Shown one piece after another: positions 38,345 to 49,347 of a DNA stretch of 49,347 nt. Every line of letters begins with the position of its first letter. The first letter of the stretch is position 1. The translations under genes were made by a program, and so were the position numbers. Source of the stretch: Myxococcales bacterium (lineage in GTDB: Bacteria; Myxococcota_A; Polyangia; Polyangiales; Houyiibacteriaceae); NCBI GenBank assembly GCA_019637115.1, contig JAHBWH010000047.1, positions 1 through 49,347 of the forward strand. Direction: 5' to 3'. Under the pieces are notes generated by a model. The model saw nothing but the letters and a program-made list of their open reading frames with translations. It did no database searches and was not told the DNA's origin.

Positions 38345-39316
38345 TCACCGCACCACGGGCAGCGCGACGCCTCTCGGGGTCCCGCGGGCGAGCGGCGATG
38401 CGAGCGACCCCACGCCGGTGAAACCTCGCGCGAGCGGCTCGTCATCCGCGCCGCGCGCGCCGCCGGGCGCGAGCGGCCTGAGCTCGTCGCCCCCGAAGCG
38501 CCGCAGATAGATGGCGTCGACGCCGACGCACGACGTCCGCTGCCCGCAGCCGTCGCACCGCGGGGCGAACGCGCGCGTGTCCATGGGTACGGGTCGTACG
38601 ATCGAGCGGGCCGCGAACGCGCCGAGCAAGCAGCGCGGCGCGCCGCTCACGTACGCCGGCAGCCCGAGCCGGCGGGCCACCTCGATCGCGTGCAACGCGA
38701 AGGGCACGGCGAGCGCGAGGCGCGGGTGGACACGCGCGAAGTCTCGCTCCGCCGCGCCTCGACCGATGGGCAGCGCGAGGTGCCACCCCGCCACCCCACG
38801 CGCGAGGAGCACGAGGGGCACCTCGTTGAGCACGCGGTAGGACGAGCGCGTCACCAGCGTCGTCACGAGCAACCGAAGGCGCGCGGCGCGCGCGCTCGCC
38901 GCGCCTTCCCAGAGGCGCTCGAAGCTACCCGCGCGACCCGTGTGGTGATCGTGCGATCCCGGGTCGGGCCCGTGGAGCGAGAGGTGGACGTCGGTCAGCC
39001 CCGCCCCAGCGAGCGCAGGCGCGAGCGCCGAGAGGGCGTGACCGTTCGTCTGCAGGACGATCCGCTCGAAGCCCGCGGCGCGCGCTTGGGCGACCGCGTC
39101 GACGAGCGAGTCCGCCTCGAGCGTCGGCTCCCCGCCCGAGAGCGTGACCTCCCGCGCGCCGGTCATGCGGAGCGCCGCGAGCCGCTCCGCGACGCTCGTC
39201 GCCAGCTCCGCGTCGTCGAAGCCACAGAAGACACACTGGTTGGTGCACCGCCCGCTGAGCGTGATCGTCGCGGACGTGAGGGTCGCGGTGCTGGTCGTCA
39301 CCGGGATGCTCGTCAC
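38345..39316 (-). CDS. Radical SAM protein with C-terminal Cys motif
   Basis: 323 residues from GTG at 39316, the first usable start in frame. The [4Fe-4S] cluster ligands are C24-x3-C28-x2-C31 in GRCTNQCVFCG. SGGEPT is the SAM-binding motif, and VLQTNG and LSLHGPDPGSHD follow the radical SAM barrel. Near the C-terminus C254-x2-C257-x5-C263-x-G (CDGCGQRTSCVG) precedes YLRRFGGDELRPLAP. The same motif recurs in the three radical SAM proteins at 42784-49066. It may bind an auxiliary cluster, as SPASM/twitch domains do, but it is shorter than SPASM. The gene starts 21 bases after the stop of a Tat-exported protein gene, and is probably co-transcribed with it. A relation to the His-Xaa-Ser cluster is likely from sequence but not proven. 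Confidence 0.88.
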   Translation of the reverse strand: MTSIPVTTSTATLTSATITLSGRCTNQCVFCGFDDAELATSVAERLAALRMTGAREVTLSGGEPTLEADSLVDAVAQARAAGFERIVLQTNGHALSALAPALAGAGLTDVHLSLHGPDPGSHDHHTGRAGSFERLWEGAASARAARLRLLVTTLVTRSSYRVLNEVPLVLLARGVAGWHLALPIGRGAAERDFARVHPRLALAVPFALHAIEVARRLGLPAYVSGAPRCLLGAFAARSIVRPVPMDTRAFAPRCDGCGQRTSCVGVDAIYLRRFGGDELRPLAPGGARGADDEPLARGFTGVGSLASPLARGTPRGVALPVVR

Positions 39317-40072: not shown

Positions 40073-42409
40073 ATGTCGCGGTATACGTCGGGGCGATGCG
40101 CGGGGCTGTGCGCGTGTCTGATCGTGCTCGGCACGATCGGCTGCGGCGCGAAAGGTCGAATGGGAACGGATGCTGGGTTGAGCGACGCCAGCACCTCCGA
40201 CGTTTCCGTCGACGACACCGGCGTCGATCCGATGGACGCGGGGCACGACGCGGGCACGGACGCGGGGCCGTCGATGAGCGCAGAGACGTGTGAGGCCTGC
40301 GAGGTCCACGGAGACTGCGTGGTTGGATCGTATTGCATCCCGTTGACGGTCGGCGGGCGCGCGTGCTTGCCCGGCTGCAACCCCGATCTGCCCAGCTGCC
40401 CGCGCAGCTTCAACTGCGTGCTCGACATCGCGAGCGGCGTGGACACGCCGATCTGCGTCCCCGTGGGCGGGACCTGCTGCGTCGACGAGGACGCCGACGA
40501 ATATGGTCAAGGAGTCGGATGCCTCGGCCCCGACTGCGACGACGACGATCCGGAGATCAACCCTGGCGCCCCCGAGCGCTGCAACGGCGTGGACGACGAC
40601 TGCGACGGCGTGGTCGACAACCCGCCCACGGACTGCCAGTCGGGCCGCTGCGACGGCAGAGGCGACGGCCGCTACGAGTCGATCTCGGGCGCTCCCTGCG
40701 TCGACGCGACGTGCGGTGATGGCGTGGTCGTCGAGTGTGGCCTCTTCACCTGCAGCGGCGGGGGCGAGGAGGGCAACCGCTGCGCGTCGACCTGCCTTCG
40801 CGACGACATGGACGACGACGCGCTCTGCATCGCCGCCGCGCACTGCGAGGCGGGCATCTGCGTCCCCGACGTCCCGAACGGCGGCGTCTGCACCCAGGAC
40901 CGGCAGTGCGTCTCGGGCCACTGCGACAACGGCTTCTGCTGCGAGACGGGTCGTTGTTGCAGCGCGGCCAGCGACTGCGGGAGCCCCGACGCGGCGATCT
41001 GCAACGACACGATGCGTTGCCAAGGCACGCGCGGCGACGTGAGCTGCGAGGACAACATGTGCCGATCACGCTCGGGGATCGAAGACGACTCGGGCTGCAC
41101 CTCCACTACCCGCGCGCTCACCTGCGGCAACTACCGTCCCGTCTTCTGCACGGGTGCCGTGAGCCAGACGCCCCCCTCGTGTCCGACGAGCTGCCTCGCC
41201 GACTCGGAGTGCGTCGACGGCGCGCACTGCGAGCGCATCGGCGCCGCTCCGGGCATCTGCTCGCTCGATCGCGCGCCGGGCTTCTCCTGCACGCGCAACC
41301 CCGAGTGCCAGGCGGGGCTCTTCTGCGTGGACGGCGTCTGCTGCACCTCGACGTGCAGCGGCACCTGCGCGGCCTGCAACCTGGCGGGGAGCCTCGGTAC
41401 CTGCTCGCCGATCCCCGTGGGGCAAGACCCAGCGAACGAGTGCCTCGGCTTCTCGTGCGCGGCCTACCACTCTGGGTTCGGCCCCGGGGAGAACACCTGC
41501 TTCCGTCACCGGGACGTGACCAACATGCAGGCCGTCTGCAACGGCGCTGGCGCCTGCGTCGGCCCCGAGACCCTCTGCCCGCTGCAGATCCGCGACCCCC
41601 AAGCGCAATGTCACGCGATCTGTCAGACGCCGACGGCGGGGACGTGTGGCTTCATGAACCCGGGCGCGTGCACGGACCTCGGCGCGGCGGCGGGGACCCA
41701 GAGCTGCGGCACCGGCGCGTGCCGACGCACCATCGATCAATGCACGGGCGGAACGCCGAACACCTGCATGCCTGGCACGCCGACCGCCGAGGTCTGCAAC
41801 GGTGTCGACAACGACTGCGACGGGGTCGTCGACAACGGCAGCCCCGCCAGCCTCTGCCCCCCGCCGCCCAACACCGCCTCGACGATGTGCGCGGGCGGGA
41901 TGTGCTCGTTCACCTGCGCGACGCGTTGGTTCGACGTCGACGGCGTCGCGACCAACGGCTGCGAGTGCCAGGACGACACGACGTCGAACGCCTGCACCGC
42001 GCCGACGTCGCTCGGGTCGATGTCGGTCGGCGCGGCCGACATCGTGGTCAATGGCGTCATCCCGACGTCGATGCAGGAGGACTGGTACAGCATCTCCTTC
42101 CCAACCGGCGCCCGCGGCCCCGGGTTGGGGGTCCCGCAGATCGCGCTGACCGGCCCGAACGCGGGGAACTTCGTCCTCGGCTTCTTCACGAGCTGCGCGA
42201 CGAACGTCACCTGCGGAGAGGGCTCGGCGACCGGCGTCGGGTCGTACAGCTTTCGCGACAACGCCTCGATACCGGGCCCACGGGCCTACACGGGGCCGCA
42301 CTCGGTCAGCTGGCCGACGACCGTCATCTTCCGTGTCACCCGCACGGGCGCGGCCGCGAGCTGCGCCGCCGCGTCCTATCAACTCACCATCCGCAGGCCC
42401 GGCTCGTGA
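40073..42409 (+). CDS. Cys-rich lipoprotein with MopE-like metal-binding repeats
   Basis: 778 residues from ATG at 40073, with GGGGAGG a few bases upstream; an in-frame ATG at 40043 is less likely. Signal peptide with lipobox: CACLIVLGTIGC. An Asp/Gly/Ala-rich linker follows (MDAGHDAGTDAGPSM). The body has many Cys pairs of the C-x-x-G-x-C-C type seen in myxobacterial surface proteins. Two copies of the MopE/PF11617 motif are seen: CDDDDPEINPGAPERCNGVD then DDCDGVVDN, and EVCNGVDNDCDGVVDNG. The last 130 residues look like a beta-sandwich (PPC-type) domain. Probably an outer-surface lipoprotein binding Ca or Cu. It directly precedes the peptide gene on the same strand, with 93 bases between, but this family is common in myxobacteria and a link is not required. 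Confidence 0.85.
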   Translation: MSRYTSGRCAGLCACLIVLGTIGCGAKGRMGTDAGLSDASTSDVSVDDTGVDPMDAGHDAGTDAGPSMSAETCEACEVHGDCVVGSYCIPLTVGGRACLPGCNPDLPSCPRSFNCVLDIASGVDTPICVPVGGTCCVDEDADEYGQGVGCLGPDCDDDDPEINPGAPERCNGVDDDCDGVVDNPPTDCQSGRCDGRGDGRYESISGAPCVDATCGDGVVVECGLFTCSGGGEEGNRCASTCLRDDMDDDALCIAAAHCEAGICVPDVPNGGVCTQDRQCVSGHCDNGFCCETGRCCSAASDCGSPDAAICNDTMRCQGTRGDVSCEDNMCRSRSGIEDDSGCTSTTRALTCGNYRPVFCTGAVSQTPPSCPTSCLADSECVDGAHCERIGAAPGICSLDRAPGFSCTRNPECQAGLFCVDGVCCTSTCSGTCAACNLAGSLGTCSPIPVGQDPANECLGFSCAAYHSGFGPGENTCFRHRDVTNMQAVCNGAGACVGPETLCPLQIRDPQAQCHAICQTPTAGTCGFMNPGACTDLGAAAGTQSCGTGACRRTIDQCTGGTPNTCMPGTPTAEVCNGVDNDCDGVVDNGSPASLCPPPPNTASTMCAGGMCSFTCATRWFDVDGVATNGCECQDDTTSNACTAPTSLGSMSVGAADIVVNGVIPTSMQEDWYSISFPTGARGPGLGVPQIALTGPNAGNFVLGFFTSCATNVTCGEGSATGVGSYSFRDNASIPGPRAYTGPHSVSWPTTVIFRVTRTGAAASCAAASYQLTIRRPGS

Positions 42410-42502: not shown

Positions 42503-42781
42503 ATGGCCGACAAGAACGATGATCTTCCTAGCTTCACCCGCAAGGCGGGCGGCCTGATGCAGCCCACCGAGCGCGCGATCGCCGATCGGGCGCGGGAGGA
42601 AGCCGACGCCGCGCGACCCGACCCGCAGGACGAGATCCTCCTGGCGCAGCATTGCTCGCACGGCTCGCACGGCTCGCACGGATCCCACGGGTCGCATGGG
42701 TCGCATGGGTCGCATGGGTCGCATGGCTCGCACGGGTCCCACGGATCCCACGGGTCCCATGGGTCCCACGGGAGCTGGTGA
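42503..42781 (+). CDS. His-Xaa-Ser repeat precursor peptide (candidate RiPP substrate, HxsA-like)
   Basis: 92 residues from ATG at 42503 with GGAGG four bases upstream. Residues 1-49 form a charged, helical leader-like part: MADKNDDLPSFTRKAGGLMQ, then a Glu/Arg/Ala-rich helix ending DPQDEILLAQ. From His50 to Ser91 the protein is 14 uninterrupted His-Xaa-Ser triplets: the first is His50-Cys51-Ser52 and the other thirteen are His-Gly-Ser. It ends with Trp92. There is no signal peptide. The stop overlaps or abuts the first radical SAM gene. A short leader plus a repetitive core followed by modifying enzymes is the pattern of ribosomally made, modified peptides. The known His-Xaa-Ser (Hxs) systems pair such a repeat protein with two radical SAM enzymes. 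A TATACC at 42428 could be a -10 element. Modification type and product are unknown. Confidence 0.88.
   Translation: MADKNDDLPSFTRKAGGLMQPTERAIADRAREEADAARPDPQDEILLAQHCSHGSHGSHGSHGSHGSHGSHGSHGSHGSHGSHGSHGSHGSW
42656..42772 (+). repeat. Thirteen 9-base units encoding Ser-His-Gly
   Basis: The array codes for thirteen Ser-His-Gly units. Codons vary (TCG/TCC, CAC/CAT, GGC/GGA/GGG), with three adjacent units identical (TCGCATGGG, units 5-7). Variation only at synonymous positions means the amino acid pattern has been kept while the DNA drifted, with some recent duplication in the middle. Confidence 0.95.
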
Positions 42782-42783
42782 AG

Positions 42784-43818
42784 GTGAAGGCGCTCGCGCA
42801 CGAGCCCAGCATCGACGAGCGGATCGCCCGCAAGGACGAGCGGGTCCACGTGCTCACGGGCGCGGTGTGCAACAACAACTGCATCTTCTGCATGGAGGAG
42901 GATCGTGACGGTCGCTACGTCACGAACAGCCAAACCGACGACGCCCTCGTCCGCTTCATCCTCGAGCAGAAGAAGGGAGCCGAGGAGATCTGCTTCACCT
43001 CTGGCGAGCCGACGACCAACCCGCGGCTTCCCCACTGGGTGCGCTGGGCCAAGGAGGCCGGGATCCCCCGCATCAGCGTGATGACCAACGGCCGCGCGCT
43101 CTCCTACGAGAAGTACGCGCGGGCGCTGATCGCAGCCGGGATGAACCGGTTCTACGTGAGCATCCACGGGCACGACAAGAAGCTCCACGAGAGCCTCACG
43201 CGCACCCCCGAGAGCTTCGAGCAGACCGTCGCCGGGCTCGACGTGATCACCAAGTACAAGCGCTACGGCGTCGAGCTCCACACGAGCACGGTGATCACCA
43301 AGCGCAACCTGCCGCACATGACGGAGATCTATCGCTTCCTCCGCTCGCACGGCGTCGATCAGGTCGTCTTCAACGTGATGCAGGCCAACGGGCGCGCCGA
43401 CACCTACTTCGAGCGCATCTTCCCGACCTACACCGAGATCGCCGGGACGGCGCGGCGCTTCTTGGAGGAGCAGATGCGGGTCGAGCCGCAGGTGATGGCC
43501 TTCTTGGTCGACATCCCGCTCTGCACGACGACGGCGCTGCCGGACTTCAACCGCGGCTACGTCGAGGCGTACGTGCACTACGAGCCGGCCGCGAACGCCG
43601 AGAAGCTCGTGTCGGTCGACGCGCTGCTCGGTCGCCGCGAGGTGGGCGCCGACGATCGCGAGCTCGTGGCGATCCGCCGCGCCGACCTCGACGACTCCGA
43701 GCGGCAGAAGCGCGCCGAGTGCGCGACCTGTCGGCACGAGGCGACCTGCGAAGGGGTCTGGGGCAACTACCTCCGGCGCTATGGCTGGGACGAGTTCGTC
43801 CCCGTACCGCCGCAGTAG
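42784..43818 (+). CDS. Radical SAM maturase adjacent to the His-Xaa-Ser peptide
   Basis: 344 residues from GTG at 42784, placed eight bases after GGGAG; a GTG at 42778 that overlaps the peptide stop (GTGA) is an alternative. Cluster motif C29-x3-C33-x2-C36 in AVCNNNCIFCMEE; FTSGEPTTNP is the SAM-binding site; ISVMTNG and FYVSIHGHDKKLHESLTRTP follow the barrel strands. The C-terminal C313-x2-C316-x5-C322-x-G (CATCRHEATCEG) with NYLRRYGWDEFVP repeats the motif of the other radical SAM proteins here. Such enzymes form C-C, C-O or C-S links, epimerise or cleave peptides using a deoxyadenosyl radical. Immediate linkage to the peptide gene makes that peptide its likely substrate. Confidence 0.93.
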   Translation: MKALAHEPSIDERIARKDERVHVLTGAVCNNNCIFCMEEDRDGRYVTNSQTDDALVRFILEQKKGAEEICFTSGEPTTNPRLPHWVRWAKEAGIPRISVMTNGRALSYEKYARALIAAGMNRFYVSIHGHDKKLHESLTRTPESFEQTVAGLDVITKYKRYGVELHTSTVITKRNLPHMTEIYRFLRSHGVDQVVFNVMQANGRADTYFERIFPTYTEIAGTARRFLEEQMRVEPQVMAFLVDIPLCTTTALPDFNRGYVEAYVHYEPAANAEKLVSVDALLGRREVGADDRELVAIRRADLDDSERQKRAECATCRHEATCEGVWGNYLRRYGWDEFVPVPPQ

Positions 43819-43826
43819 GCCCCCGC

Positions 43827-43947
43827 GGCAGCAGGGCCCTGTGGCAGTAGGGCCCTGTGGCAGTAGGGCCCTGTGGCAGTAGGGCCCTGTGGCAGTAGGG
43901 CCCTGTGGCAGTAGGGCCCTGTGGCAGTAGGGCCCTGTGGCAGTAGG
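43827..43947. repeat. 16-base tandem repeat between two radical SAM genes
   Basis: Seven full units of GGCAGTAGGGCCCTGT (the first has C for T at position 6) plus a partial eighth. Each unit contains the palindrome AGGGCCCT, so single-stranded DNA or RNA could fold in many registers. The 3' end of the upstream gene, GCAGTAGGCCCC with its TAG stop, resembles the unit, so the array may have grown from that gene end. There are no spacers, so it is not CRISPR. The array ends 33 bases before the next start codon. Confidence 0.95.
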
Positions 43948-43980: not shown

Positions 43981-45843
43981 ATGTCCACGCTCACGCAGTC
44001 CACGCCGTCCCACGGCACCGATGAGGTGCAGAAGGTGGTCGAGCACGAGGCGGCCGCGCACGAGAAGCGCAACTGGGTGCGCCTGACCTTCGACTGCAAC
44101 AACCGCTGCATCTTCTGCCTCGACTCGGACACCCACGACGGCCGGATGCGCGACCGCGAGGAGGTCAAGCAGCAGATCCTCGAAGGCCGCCGGGCCGGCG
44201 CCACGCGCCTCATCCTCTCGGGGGGCGAGCCCACCATCCACCCGAGCTACGTAGACTTCATCAAGCTCGGCAAGCGCGCCGGGTACACGAAGATCCAGAC
44301 CGTCACCAACGGTCGCCTCTTCCAATACCAGGACTTCCTCGACCGGTGCATCGCGGCGGGCCTCGACGAGATCACCTTCTCGCTGCACGGCCCGAACGCC
44401 CGCATCCACGACGCGCTCGTCGGCGTGAAGGGCGCGTTCGAGCAGGAGAGCGCGGGTCTGCGCCGAGCGCTCGCGACGCGGGACCGCACGGGAAAGCCGA
44501 TCGTCAACGTCGACATCGTCATCAACCGCGCGAACGTCCGACACCTGCGCGAGATGCTCGACCTCTTCATCTCGTGGGGCGTGCACGAGTTCGACCTGCT
44601 GCAGGTCGTCCCCTTCGGGCGCGCGTTCACCGAGGGGCGCACCACGCTCTTCTACGACCTCGAGGAGATGCAGCCGCACCTGCGCGAAGCCTTCGAGTAC
44701 ACGAAGCGGCCGGGCATGCACATCTGGCTCAACCGCTTCCCGCCCGCCCACCTCGAAGGCTTCGAGCACCTCATCCAGGATCCCTACAAGCTCAACGACG
44801 AGGTGCGCGGCCGAAAGGAAGAGTTCGCGCGGCTGCTGACGACGGGAGAAGACCTCGACTGCCGCGAGAAGGACGGGCGCTGTCGCTACTGCTATCTCGA
44901 GCAGCTCTGCAACCACCTCTATGACGAGCGCGACCGCGTCGCCGAGGCGCGCTTCACCCGCGTGCGCGTCGAGAGCGAGGCGCGCCGCCCGGTCGTCTTC
45001 GGCGGCGACCCCGCGAGCGCCAAGCGCGCGGTGCACTTCGGCGGGCCCGCCGAGGGCGAGCCGGAAGCGACGCGGCGGCACCTGCCGCTCCTCGCTCCGA
45101 CGGTCGGGCAAACCTCCGCGCCGCCCGCGCGCAGCCTCGACGAGCGCCTCGAGCACGCTGGCGTGACGTTCGGCTGGATCGTCGCGCCGAACCTCGAGCG
45201 CGCCCGCGCCGCGCTCGCCGCGCACCCGAGCCTGCGCGAGCTCGAGCTCGAGCTCGAGCAGCTCGACGGCCTCGCCGACGCGCTCGACGGCGACACGCTC
45301 GACGGCCGCGTCGTGCGCGCGATCCACGCCCAGACGGCCGAGGAGGCCGAGGCGCTCCTGGCCCTCCCCGGCCGCTTCGAGGTGGTGCTCGCGCTGCGCA
45401 GATCGACCGAGGCGTGGCTGCTCGCGCTGAGCGACCCCGATCCCCGCCTCGTCCTGCGGCAGCGCACGCACGAGCGCCTCACCGAGTCCGCCGAGGACGA
45501 CGTCGATCTCGGCGCGTTCTTTGCCGCCTTCCGCCACGACGTGCCGGTCGTCGGGGTGCCGGCCTGCGTCCTCGGTCGCTCTCCGCGCGTCGAGCCGCCG
45601 ACGCTCGACGCCGCGATGCTCGCGCCCGAGGGAGCGCTCGAGATCTTCCGCTTCACCCAGCGGCACATCGAGGCGGGCTATTTCACGAAGGCGCTCCGGT
45701 GCGGGGGGTGCGCCCGCGACGCCGAGTGCCGAGGTCTCCACGTCAACTACGTGCGCGCGCACGGCTACGACGTGATGAAGCCCATCGCCCCCGACGCAGA
45801 CACGCACCCCGAGGGGCCCGACGGAGCGCTCGCCGCAGAATGA
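43981..45843 (+). CDS. Large radical SAM protein with added C-terminal domain
   Basis: 620 residues from ATG at 43981; no clear ribosome site. Residues 30-320 hold a radical SAM core: C39-x3-C43-x2-C46 (CNNRCIFC), ILSGGEPTIHPS, VTNGRLFQ, FSLHGPNARIHDALVG and VVPFGRAF. Cys-rich segment at residues 294-310 (C294, C301, C304, C310; CRYCYLEQLC) may bind a second cluster. After a linker, residues 380-620 form another domain without a CxxxCxxC site. It ends with C574-x2-C577-x5-C583-x-G (CGGCARDAECRG) and NYVRAHGYDVMKP, the same tail as the smaller enzyme. The extra domain could recognise the peptide or be a decayed second barrel. The stop overlaps the HExxH gene start (ATGA). Likely a second maturase for the His-Xaa-Ser peptide. 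Confidence 0.92.
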   Translation: MSTLTQSTPSHGTDEVQKVVEHEAAAHEKRNWVRLTFDCNNRCIFCLDSDTHDGRMRDREEVKQQILEGRRAGATRLILSGGEPTIHPSYVDFIKLGKRAGYTKIQTVTNGRLFQYQDFLDRCIAAGLDEITFSLHGPNARIHDALVGVKGAFEQESAGLRRALATRDRTGKPIVNVDIVINRANVRHLREMLDLFISWGVHEFDLLQVVPFGRAFTEGRTTLFYDLEEMQPHLREAFEYTKRPGMHIWLNRFPPAHLEGFEHLIQDPYKLNDEVRGRKEEFARLLTTGEDLDCREKDGRCRYCYLEQLCNHLYDERDRVAEARFTRVRVESEARRPVVFGGDPASAKRAVHFGGPAEGEPEATRRHLPLLAPTVGQTSAPPARSLDERLEHAGVTFGWIVAPNLERARAALAAHPSLRELELELEQLDGLADALDGDTLDGRVVRAIHAQTAEEAEALLALPGRFEVVLALRRSTEAWLLALSDPDPRLVLRQRTHERLTESAEDDVDLGAFFAAFRHDVPVVGVPACVLGRSPRVEPPTLDAAMLAPEGALEIFRFTQRHIEAGYFTKALRCGGCARDAECRGLHVNYVRAHGYDVMKPIAPDADTHPEGPDGALAAE

Positions 45844-47096
45844 GCGCGGGTGAGCCGACCCACCTGCCTCCGGCGTCGACCTCCGCGTCGCTCGAGCCGA
45901 CGCGCCCGCTGGCCGAAGCTCTCGGCGCGTCGGGCCTGGTGCTCGATGAGCCAGGCGCGCGCGTCGACGACCACCCCGCGCCCAGCCCTCGGCTCGCGAG
46001 CCTTCGCCGGGCCGAAGCGTGGCGTCTGCTCAAGGCGCACGCCGGTACGGGAGAGCGCCACGTCGCCCGGGCGCTCGCAGACCTCGCCCGACGCGCGCCC
46101 GACGAGGCCGCCGCCGTCCTGCTCTCACCGATGGCGGCCGTGCTCGCGCGGACCGGGCGCGCGCGCGAGGCAGCGCCGACGTGGGCGCTGGAGCTCGCGC
46201 GGCGTAACGCCCTCGGCGCGCGCTACCCGCTGCGCGACGCGACGGTCACGAACCTCGCGCTCGGGGTCGAGCTCACCGTCGGCGAGGGCGCGCTCGAGGA
46301 CGGCGCGCTCGTGCTCGGCGGCGGCGACCGCATCTGGCTGACCCCCGAGGCGCTCGGCGACCACCCCTGCGCCCGTCGCGTCATCCACCCGCTCGGTCCG
46401 GGCGTGTACTTCGCCGAGGTCGACCCCAACCCCTTGGCGATGCACGAGGCCCACCCCGACAAAGCGGGCAACGCGCTCTCCCTCGGCGACCACCCGCCCT
46501 CCGCCTGGATCGACGCCCTCACGGCCGCGCTCGGCCTCGTCGAGCGCCACCTCCCGAGCGTCGCGCGCGACCTCCGCGCGCTCGACACGGTGCTCCTCCC
46601 CGTCGGCCACCGCGACGACGCGCACCTCTCGGCGTCGTACGCGGAGTACGTCGGCGCCGCCTACCTCACGCTGCACCCGAGCCCGACGACCTTGGCCGAG
46701 GCCATCGTGCACGAGCACCAGCACAGCAAGGCGAACCTCGCGGGCTTTCACGACCCGCTGCTCGAGAACGCCCACTCGACCCGGGTGGTCTCGCCGGTGC
46801 GGCCCGACCTGCGCCCGCTCTGGGGGGTGCTGCTCGCGGTGCACGCCTTCGTCCCGGTGGCAGAGCTCTACCTCCGCCTCGAGGCCGCAGGCGGCGCGCG
46901 GGTCCACGCGCGGCTCGTCGACGTCGTCTCGCGCAACGACGAGGGCCTGGCGACCTTGCGCGAGCACGCGCGGCCGACGCCCGTCGGCGCCATGATCCTC
47001 GCGGAGCTCGAGGCTTGGCACGAGGCGCACCTCGTCGCGCTCGCGGAGCGCGGCCTCGCGCCCGAGCGCACGGAGGCACCTCGATGGGAGGGCTGA
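45840..47096 (+). CDS. HExxH-motif peptide modification protein
   Basis: 418 residues from ATG at 45840, overlapping the previous stop by ATGA, so translation is coupled. The metal site is H291-E-H-Q-H295 in AEAIVHEHQHSKANLAGFHD, followed by PLLENAHSTRVVSPVRPDLR then PLWGVLLAVHAFVPVAELYL. This matches the HExxH domain of RiPP gene clusters (known beside FxsB-type radical SAM maturases). As I recall, members of this family have been shown to be iron and alpha-ketoglutarate dependent peptide beta-hydroxylases, including on His. No signal peptide or zinc-protease prosegment is visible, so a secreted protease is unlikely. Here hydroxylation of His or Ser in the repeat is a reasonable guess. The end overlaps the next gene by 13 bases. 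Confidence 0.88.
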   Translation: MSAGEPTHLPPASTSASLEPTRPLAEALGASGLVLDEPGARVDDHPAPSPRLASLRRAEAWRLLKAHAGTGERHVARALADLARRAPDEAAAVLLSPMAAVLARTGRAREAAPTWALELARRNALGARYPLRDATVTNLALGVELTVGEGALEDGALVLGGGDRIWLTPEALGDHPCARRVIHPLGPGVYFAEVDPNPLAMHEAHPDKAGNALSLGDHPPSAWIDALTAALGLVERHLPSVARDLRALDTVLLPVGHRDDAHLSASYAEYVGAAYLTLHPSPTTLAEAIVHEHQHSKANLAGFHDPLLENAHSTRVVSPVRPDLRPLWGVLLAVHAFVPVAELYLRLEAAGGARVHARLVDVVSRNDEGLATLREHARPTPVGAMILAELEAWHEAHLVALAERGLAPERTEAPRWEG

Positions 47097-49066
47097 AGGC
47101 CGGGGTCCCCGTCGCGCGCTCGCGCGCGTCGACCACGCGCGAGCGCGCGACGTCAGCGCCCCCGATCGCGCCGTGGGCGGTGGGCTGGCGAGGGCGCAAG
47201 GCGCTGCTGAAGGTGGGCTACGGGTGCAACGAGAACTGCACCTTCTGCCACACGGCCGACGTGCGACACGTCGACGGCACGCACGGCGAGGTCGTCGCGA
47301 AGATCCGCCGCGCCGCCGAGCTCGGACACGGCATGGTGGTCTTCTCGGGGGGCGAGCCGACGATCCGCGGCGAGCTCCTCGAGTGGGCGGCCCTCGCCGC
47401 GAGCCTGGACATGGACACCGGCCTCGTCACGAACGGGCTCGTGCTCGCCTACCCCGACGTCGTCGACGCGCTCTGCGCGCGGCGTCTGCGCTACGTCTAC
47501 ATGTCGCTGCACGGCGTCGGGCGTATCCACGACCGCCTCGTCCGCAGCGAGTCGTGGGAGGCGGCCTACCGGGCGGTCGGGAACCTCTCGGGGCGCGGGA
47601 TCGATCTCACGCTGAACTGTGTCGTCACCAAGCAGAACCTCGAGCACCTCGTGCCGCTGGTCGACGCAGTGCTCCCCTTCTCGGATCTCCGGCTCAAGTT
47701 CTCGATGGTCCAGCCGAAGGGCGGCGGCGCGCGGCTCTTCGACGGCCTCACCGCGCGCGTCACCGACGTCGCCGCGCGCGTCGCCGAGGCGATCGCGCAT
47801 GGCGCGCGCGCGGTCGCCGAGCGCGGCGCCGCGGGGCCCTCGTTCGGCCACGATGGCATCCCGCACTGCCTCTTGCCGGAGCTCGAGGGCCTCTACGACG
47901 ACCTCAAGACACACCGCTTCGCGACGATGAGCGACGTCGGCGAGCCCGACTACTTCCCCGTCGACGAGGAGGCCAACGTCCAGCCCGAGGAGACCTGCGG
48001 CGGCTGCGCGCGGCGGGGTCCCTGCCCGGGGCTCTACCGCGGCTACGCGGAGCGCTTCGGCACGAGCGAGCTGCGGCGCCCGCCGCCCGCGCCACGCTCG
48101 AACTCGTTCACGTGGACCTTCGAGGCGCAGGTCGCCTCGCGCGCGTCGGACGATCACTGCCCGCTGCGCGACGGCGCGCTCGGTGTGATCCCGTGGGACC
48201 GCGGCCGCGAGCTCTTCGTCCGCCATCACGTCCCCGCCGAGGGCGGCTGGCGGATCGCGCGCTTCCGCGCCGACACGCGCGACTTCGACGACCGCGAGAT
48301 CGTGGCGACCAAGCACGCGCTCGGGCAGGCCTACCTCGACGTCTCGCGCAAGCCGGCGCCCGACGACTTCGCGCGGGACCTCCGGCCGCTCGCGCGGAGC
48401 GCGCTCTGCAGAGGCTGCGCGCACGCAACGCGCTGCACCGGGCTCTTCGAGCCCCGACTCGACGACGACCCCTTCACCCGCGACGACGAGCTCGTCCGCG
48501 AGCTCCTCCGCGGCCTCGAAGGCGACGTGCTCGACCTCGGCTGCGGCGAAGGGCCCTACGAGGACGTGTGGGCGCCCCGCGTCCGCGCCGGTCACGTCCG
48601 CTACGTCGGCGTAGACCCCCACGCCGACCTCGACGCGCTCCGGCGCCGCTGGCCTTGGGCCACCCTCCACGAGGGCGAGGCGGAGTCGCTCGCGCTCGAC
48701 GCGCGCTTCGACCACGTGCTCGTGCTGCGCAGCTGGAACCACTTCGCCGATCCAGGAGAGGTGGTCCGGCGCGTCGCGGAGCGGCTGCGCCCCGGCGGCA
48801 CGCTCCTGGTCGTCGACAACGTCGCCTTCGGCCTGGCCCGCACCCGCGCGCACGCGCGCGTCGCCGAGCGCGGCCCCGCGCGCTTCGAGCACTTCCGCAA
48901 CGACGACGCGGAGGCCGCCGCGCGCGTGATCGCGAGCGCGACCGACGCCCTCGTGCCGACCCTGCGGCGCGACGTCGGTCCAGGGACCGCGAACCAATGG
49001 CTCCTGCGCTACGCGCGCGCGGCAGACGCGCCGGACGCCGACACGCCGAGCGAGCCGACCGGATGA
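47084..49066 (+). CDS. Radical SAM protein fused to a SAM methyltransferase
   Basis: 660 residues from ATG at 47084, with GGAGG about eight bases upstream, overlapping the HExxH gene by 13 bases. Cluster motif C48-x3-C52-x2-C55 (CNENCTFCHTAD), then FSGGEPTIRGE, LVTNGL and MSLHGVGRIHDRLV. Two C-x2-C-x5-C-x-G sites follow: C305 (CGGCARRGPCPG, with YAERFGTSELRRP) and C442 (CRGCAHATRCTG). From about residue 475 comes a class I methyltransferase: VLDLGCGEGPYEDVW, YVGVDPHADLDAL, HVLVLRSWNHF and LRPGGTLLVVDN. The fusion suggests sequential radical chemistry and N-, O- or C-methylation of the same peptide. Its stop overlaps the next start by ATGA. Confidence 0.92.
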   Translation: MGGLKAGVPVARSRASTTRERATSAPPIAPWAVGWRGRKALLKVGYGCNENCTFCHTADVRHVDGTHGEVVAKIRRAAELGHGMVVFSGGEPTIRGELLEWAALAASLDMDTGLVTNGLVLAYPDVVDALCARRLRYVYMSLHGVGRIHDRLVRSESWEAAYRAVGNLSGRGIDLTLNCVVTKQNLEHLVPLVDAVLPFSDLRLKFSMVQPKGGGARLFDGLTARVTDVAARVAEAIAHGARAVAERGAAGPSFGHDGIPHCLLPELEGLYDDLKTHRFATMSDVGEPDYFPVDEEANVQPEETCGGCARRGPCPGLYRGYAERFGTSELRRPPPAPRSNSFTWTFEAQVASRASDDHCPLRDGALGVIPWDRGRELFVRHHVPAEGGWRIARFRADTRDFDDREIVATKHALGQAYLDVSRKPAPDDFARDLRPLARSALCRGCAHATRCTGLFEPRLDDDPFTRDDELVRELLRGLEGDVLDLGCGEGPYEDVWAPRVRAGHVRYVGVDPHADLDALRRRWPWATLHEGEAESLALDARFDHVLVLRSWNHFADPGEVVRRVAERLRPGGTLLVVDNVAFGLARTRAHARVAERGPARFEHFRNDDAEAAARVIASATDALVPTLRRDVGPGTANQWLLRYARAADAPDADTPSEPTG

Positions 49067-49347
49067 GCCACGCCGAGCCCGAGCGCGGCGCGACGCCGAA
49101 CGCGCGCCTCCGTCACGCCATCGCGCTCGCCGGGCGCCGCGCGCTCGCGGGGGCGCGCGCGCAGGCTCGGGCCGCGCTCGACGAGGCGCCGGACGATCCG
49201 CTCGTCGCGACGGTTGCGGGTCTCGTGCTCTTCGTCACGCGGGACTACGGCGAGAGCCTCGACGCGCTCGCGCGCGCGGCCGCGCTCGGCGCCCCTCCGC
49301 GGGTCCACTGGCTCCGTCGCGAGCGGGCCGCGAGGCTCGGGTGGGAG
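49063..49347 (+). CDS. TPR-like protein, N-terminal part (runs off the right edge)
   Basis: 95 codons from ATG at 49063, overlapping the previous stop (ATGA), with no stop before the edge. The sequence is made of Ala/Arg/Leu-rich helices: RHAIALAGRRALAGARAQAR then AALDEAPDDPLVATVAGLVL and GESLDALARAAALGAPPRVH, the spacing of tetratricopeptide repeats. The HExxH protein upstream also has TPR-like helices at its start. It may scaffold the peptide or the enzymes. Nothing more can be said from this part. Confidence 0.65.
   Translation, partial: MSHAEPERGATPNARLRHAIALAGRRALAGARAQARAALDEAPDDPLVATVAGLVLFVTRDYGESLDALARAAALGAPPRVHWLRRERAARLGWE

Follow-up and report, generated by a model that had tools for sequence, protein, structure and literature searches.

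What does a protein bearing an HExxH motif do beside a gene for a peptide with a Ser-His-Gly repeat? The question is raised by the stretch of DNA analysed here (the window: 49,347 nucleotides of contig JAHBWH010000047.1 from a Myxococcales bacterium), for which an earlier note had proposed that the protein hydroxylates the His-Gly-Ser core of the peptide. The Hxs radical SAM system has long been known from sequence. The best explanation as a whole, which we hold with belief and doubt in about equal measure, is that the gene product is a stand-alone Fe(II)/2-oxoglutarate oxygenase within an enlarged Hxs (His-Xaa-Ser) system, and that it would hydroxylate the HxsA4 core iteratively, most likely at His. 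The proposal of the earlier note is thus supported in part: its enzyme class and its substrate peptide both gained support.

Gene cluster in the window

The window ends where the contig ends, at position 49347. The following features are considered.

38345..39316, reverse strand: fourth radical SAM gene, HxsC-like (TIGR03977 80 bits, below cut-off)
42503..42781, forward strand: precursor HxsA4, 92 aa, leader followed by (SHG)13-SW (NF038313 114.9 bits, cut-off 55)
42656..42772, forward strand: 13 copies of the 9-bp Ser-His-Gly unit
42778..43818, forward strand: radical SAM gene HxsC4 (NF038332 632.6 bits, cut-off 500); inferred GTG start overlaps the precursor stop
43981..45843, forward strand: second radical SAM gene, rSAM2 (PF04055)
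45840..47096, forward strand: predicted aKG-HExxH-type oxygenase, 418 aa (TIGR04267 profile match, fold match to SjiH and ChlB-HExxH)
46452..46472, forward strand: HPDKAGN motif, residues 205-211
46710..46724, forward strand: HEHQH motif, residues 291-295
46800..46817, forward strand: RPDLRP, residues 321-326
47084..49066, forward strand: radical SAM gene with C-terminal methyltransferase domain (PF04055, PF13489/PF08241)

The HExxH gene overlaps both of its neighbours, its ATG lying across the rSAM2 stop (ATGA, 45840-45843) and its 3' end across the start of the radical SAM/methyltransferase gene (ATG 47084), and therefore appears to be a member of an operon. The order rSAM2, HExxH, radical SAM/methyltransferase is kept in two other genomes (G353 and G172) at 60-79% identity; there, rSAM2 homologues 78-79% identical precede the HExxH gene and the radical SAM/methyltransferase homologue follows it. 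Homologues of the latter also lie near HExxH at four further loci (L038, L040, L157 and L160), where the HExxH gene is adjoined by homologues of the HxsC-like gene as well. The radical SAM/methyltransferase protein of the window carries extra Cys clusters.

Within its own genome, the HExxH protein is the single TIGR04267 match in a profile scan, and HxsA4, three genes upstream of it, is the single precursor match over cut-off. The Hxs genes are not all in one cluster here: HxsB (534.7 bits, cut-off 370) and HxsD (50.9 bits, cut-off 50) lie together on another contig (C210). The cluster contains no recognisable peptidase gene. The space separating HxsC4 from rSAM2 is occupied by 8.5 tandem copies of the 16-bp unit GCAGTAGGGCCCTGTG (43812-43947, 95% match), with no obvious coding. 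Directly upstream of the precursor, 40076-42409 encodes a large, Cys-rich protein that is apparently secreted and carries a pair of MopE-type metal-binding motifs (PF11617); in G353 its place is taken by HxsD and HxsB.

Enzyme class and active site

The reading frame that the earlier note had placed at 45840-47096 on the forward strand was recovered exactly, and the motif it had read as H291-E-H-Q-H295 is indeed HEHQH at those residues. The RiPP-associated domain that it had assigned there is matched by TIGR04267 (NCBIfam, aKG-HExxH-type peptide beta-hydroxylase) over residues 228-390 with 81.3 bits, the curated cut-off being 40 bits. This is the sole domain of the chain in NCBIfam and Pfam scans, a radical SAM domain being absent, and no Pfam family, peptidase or radical SAM included, was matched by the protein. 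Chance occurrence of HExxH was ruled out by the TIGR04267 score together with the invariance of the motif in 76 homologues.

The predicted structure, built from 76 sequences (mean pLDDT 90.3, pTM 0.90), matches SjiH (PDB 22ob) with Z 29.6 over 364 residues, which is nearly full length, and the HExxH domain of ChlB (8s5f) with Z 26.4 over 290 residues; the next-best match is an unrelated helical entry at Z 9.6. A sequence search of solved structures was significant only for SjiH (22nu/22ob) and ChlH/ChlB-HExxH (8s5f), and the profile match to SjiH covers nearly the whole chain (E 8.5e-20), although at an identity of about 17%. No description of the function of SjiH was found in the accessible literature.

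In a three-way alignment, our protein, SjiH and ChlB-HExxH agree at thirteen positions of the motif region, among them H291, E292, H295, K297, P319, R321, D323, L324, R325, P326 and G329. The residues H291, E292, H295, R321, D323, R325 and H335 are invariant in the 76 homologues, as are the HEHQH and RPDLRP motifs. Conservation singled out no third metal ligand: H335 is aligned with Phe in the case of ChlB and with Tyr in that of SjiH, and E309 varies among homologues of the subfamily itself. We regard H291 and H295 as putative Fe ligands, and 2-oxoglutarate is probably held by R321, D323 and R325, the two arginines being assigned this role because of their conservation. Family model, fold and active-site residues all agree with the iron/alpha-ketoglutarate oxygenase class suggested in the earlier note rather than with a protease, and the product of 45840-47096 is almost certainly an aKG-HExxH-type oxygenase, as judged from profile and model.

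The HPDKxGN motif marks the HxsA4-associated HExxH subfamily. It is present in the HxsA4-linked set of HExxH proteins and was not found in the TIGR04267 proteins of seven genomes (G040, G060, G101, G176, G210, G342 and G358). One HExxH homologue (L248) comes from a metagenome bin labelled Klebsiella pneumoniae, which is probably mislabelled or contaminated.

The HxsA4 precursor and its core

HxsA4 scores over the cut-off of NF038313 as a His-Xaa-Ser repeat precursor (HxsA-type) and consists of a 51-residue leader ending in QHC, 13 SHG units and a final SW. The 13 units are encoded by 8 different nonamers, all synonymous; the repeat is thus kept by selection at the protein level and is not the result of a recent expansion of the DNA. 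The 14 equivalent sites counted in the earlier note hold for Ser, counted from residue 51, and become 13 for His, or 14 if the pre-repeat His50 is included.

The 79 distinct HxsA4 cores compared, of 8 to 50 repeats each (one core incomplete), comprise 1281 repeat units. His is conserved in 99.8% of the units (1278), Ser in 99.7% (1277) and Gly in 97.7%, figures inflated by the choice of the cores on SHG content and a final Trp. Precursors at four loci (L180, L182, L187 and L271) have 41 to 50 SHG units and are thus roughly three times as long as usual.

The modified residue was sought from variation of the core between systems with and without an HExxH gene; both have the same SHG core and no signal was obtained. 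Since the core exists in systems without the gene (loci L189-L204), the enzyme is dispensable for the existence of the core, nor can it be held responsible for the conservation of His. The L189-L204 precursors carry this core behind a different, signal-like leader (KITRxQAA...HALA), and their genomes mostly have no haem-copper oxidase.

Association of the enzyme and the precursor across the phylum

The same set of 377 genomes of the phylum was scanned with the TIGR04267, HxsA4 and HxsC4 profiles. Over cut-off, HExxH and HxsA4 occur together in 86 genomes, HExxH alone in 24, HxsA4 alone in 27 and neither in 240 (Fisher p 2e-38, ancestry ignored); collapsed to genera, the counts are 50, 18, 19 and 147 (p 2e-20). 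A hand count over the 28 genomes of the order that reach 8 Mb gave 21 with both, 2 with HExxH only and 5 with neither (p 2e-4, ancestry again ignored), so that genome size is no explanation for the association. The two genes lie at most 15 kb apart in 27 genomes from about 12 families. HxsC4 is rarer than HxsA4, being present in 34 genomes, which indicates that HExxH tracks the precursor and not HxsC4. Named carriers include Minicystis (with M. rosea), Polyangium, Nannocystis, Plesiocystis (with P. pacifica) and Enhygromyxa (Myxococcota).

In seven of the 24 genomes with HExxH only, the TIGR04267 proteins lack the HPDKxGN motif. Twelve others have an HxsA4 match below cut-off, the weakest of which could be chance, and these twelve include eight of the nine motif-bearing HExxH-only genomes that were inspected; one of the twelve (G211) encodes a plain (SHG)8-SW peptide. 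Where the genes are linked, the clusters contain HxsA4, several further radical SAM genes, HExxH and rSAM2 and often HxsD (TIGR03976 over cut-off) and HxsB (542.6 bits, cut-off 370), with HxsB and HxsD adjoining HxsA4 in G353 and many other genomes. Many genomes of the Polyangium and Nannocystis types carry a solitary HExxH gene a long way from the precursor; no rival precursor was found beside these stand-alone genes, the neighbours of which show only genus-level housekeeping synteny.

The position in the operon, the joint occurrence across the phylum and the physical linkage all support the His-Gly-Ser peptide as the substrate, as the earlier note had assumed, and HxsA4 is in all probability the peptide on which the HExxH enzyme would act.

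Oxygen and lineage

An O2-dependent enzyme is expected to be absent from lineages without oxygen respiration. Haem-copper oxidase (PF00115) was found in all 21 HExxH-bearing genomes tested versus 7 of 19 HxsA4 genomes without HExxH, 4 of these 7 matches being weak (near 190 bits) and the other 12 genomes having no oxidase; this contrast (p 9e-6) is confounded by ancestry, as 13 of the 19 genomes come from one family (f27). Some HxsA4 genomes without HExxH retain HxsB and HxsD beside the precursor. The distribution of the oxidase is as would be expected for an O2-dependent step and, with that confounding, gives a hint of one.

Proposed reaction and alternatives

In the proposed pathway, the HxsA4 leader would be bound by the enzymes, after which HxsB/HxsD, HxsC4 and the further radical SAM enzymes would modify the peptide. 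The HExxH enzyme, with Fe(II) on H291/H295 and 2-oxoglutarate on R321/R325, would then form an Fe(IV)=O species that abstracts the beta-hydrogen of a core residue, most likely His, to give beta-hydroxy-histidine, and the hydroxylation would be repeated along the 13 SHG units; both the residue and the number of sites are presumptive. For enzymes of the aKG-HExxH class, beta-hydroxylation has been described at His, Asp, Phe and Pro and at stretches of four to five Gln (PMC12636437, PMC13060819). His is the first choice because ChlB hydroxylates His and because PosC/PflC process four to five Gln in succession; the chances of His in particular being the modified residue seem roughly balanced, and a modification in the repeat core rather than at another site is the likelier case. 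To call such a reaction "unusually iterative", as the earlier note did, is too strong, since iteration by an aKG-HExxH enzyme has already been published.

The most serious competitor keeps the enzyme class and the peptide and changes the outcome: Ser might be converted to an aldehyde, with a loss of 2 Da at each site, or the target might be one position only, such as the C-terminal Trp or the pre-repeat His-Cys. The conservation of Ser in the repeats is on a par with that of His, the final Trp is found in 79 of 79 cores (where it is also a selection criterion), and a Ser introduced at the target site of PosC was oxidised by 2 Da (PMC12636437). Against this, the literature covered contains no report of Ser as the native target of a natural aKG-HExxH enzyme, whereas His is native for ChlB, and the Trp and His-Cys are equally present in systems without HExxH. 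We consider this outcome rather unlikely, though a good deal less so than the two that follow.

Cleavage of the peptide, whether oxidative at the backbone in the manner of PflC/PosC or hydrolytic as by a zincin-type leader peptidase, would suit the zincin motif HExxH and a cluster in which no peptidase gene is recognised, and PflC does cleave oxidatively and, without the leader, hydrolytically (PMC12636437). Yet fold and residues match the oxygenases (Z 26-30), true zincins reach only Z about 6 in the fold search, the protein has no Pfam peptidase match and the precursor has no ARMD-like site, so that cleavage is improbable; the protease reading was given low weight after the comparison of fold and residues. 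An equally small chance is given to the idea that the enzyme targets some other, unlinked peptide or protein and that its position in the cluster is incidental. This would agree with the stand-alone HExxH genes found among unrelated genes in many genomes, but it is opposed by the co-occurrence, by the 27 physical linkages and by the single candidate precursor over cut-off in the genome itself. Iterative beta-hydroxylation of His in the HxsA4 core is the preferred reading.

Literature in one open-access library on HxsA/HxsB/HxsC, His-Xaa-Ser and hydroxyhistidine reported no product and no HExxH partner. The HExxH and HxsA4 families are already known by name; the literature searched has no account of their conserved partnership, of how widely it occurs or of the subfamily motif. 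The present findings suggest a dedicated oxygenase added to the Hxs system across a phylum. The substrate is simple, repetitive and His-rich, and counting +16 Da steps on it would show how aKG-HExxH enzymes iterate, in which direction they proceed and which sites they choose. More tentatively, and with the doubts outweighing the case for it, the phylum may share a RiPP in the form of a long, collagen-like Gly-Ser-His polymer in which most or all repeats bear beta-hydroxy-histidine, for which a single oxygenase would have to act as often as about 50 times per chain in the longest relatives; aerobic lineages would add this layer and anaerobic ones make the same peptide without it. If true, a poly-hydroxyhistidine peptide would represent a novel type of biopolymer, one that binds metals or surfaces.

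Comparison with known systems

SjiH (PDB 22ob/22nu) offers the closest solved fold. ChlB, a fused radical SAM/aKG-HExxH enzyme of Chlorogloeopsis (PDB 8s5f), is alike in its HExxH fold, in HExxH itself, in the Lys and in RxDLRP, and fused enzymes of its type hydroxylate Asp and His of a RiPP precursor. In ChlB the HExxH domain shares its chain with the radical SAM domain and depends on a cyclophane formed beforehand, whereas here the enzyme is encoded by a gene of its own and the core consists of Ser-His-Gly units. The Pseudomonas enzymes PosC/PflC, which beta-hydroxylate four to five successive Gln, provide the precedent for iteration; unlike the present system, they also cleave the backbone at ARMD, act on a precursor with a nitrile-hydratase-like leader and have no radical SAM partner. 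Of the Hxs system itself (HxsA, HxsB, HxsC and HxsD), the window has HxsA4 and HxsC4, and another contig of the genome supplies HxsB and HxsD, each of the four scoring over its cut-off. Judged by the names of its models, that system is defined without an HExxH enzyme, whereas here an HExxH enzyme is a conserved partner, accompanied by several extra radical SAM genes.
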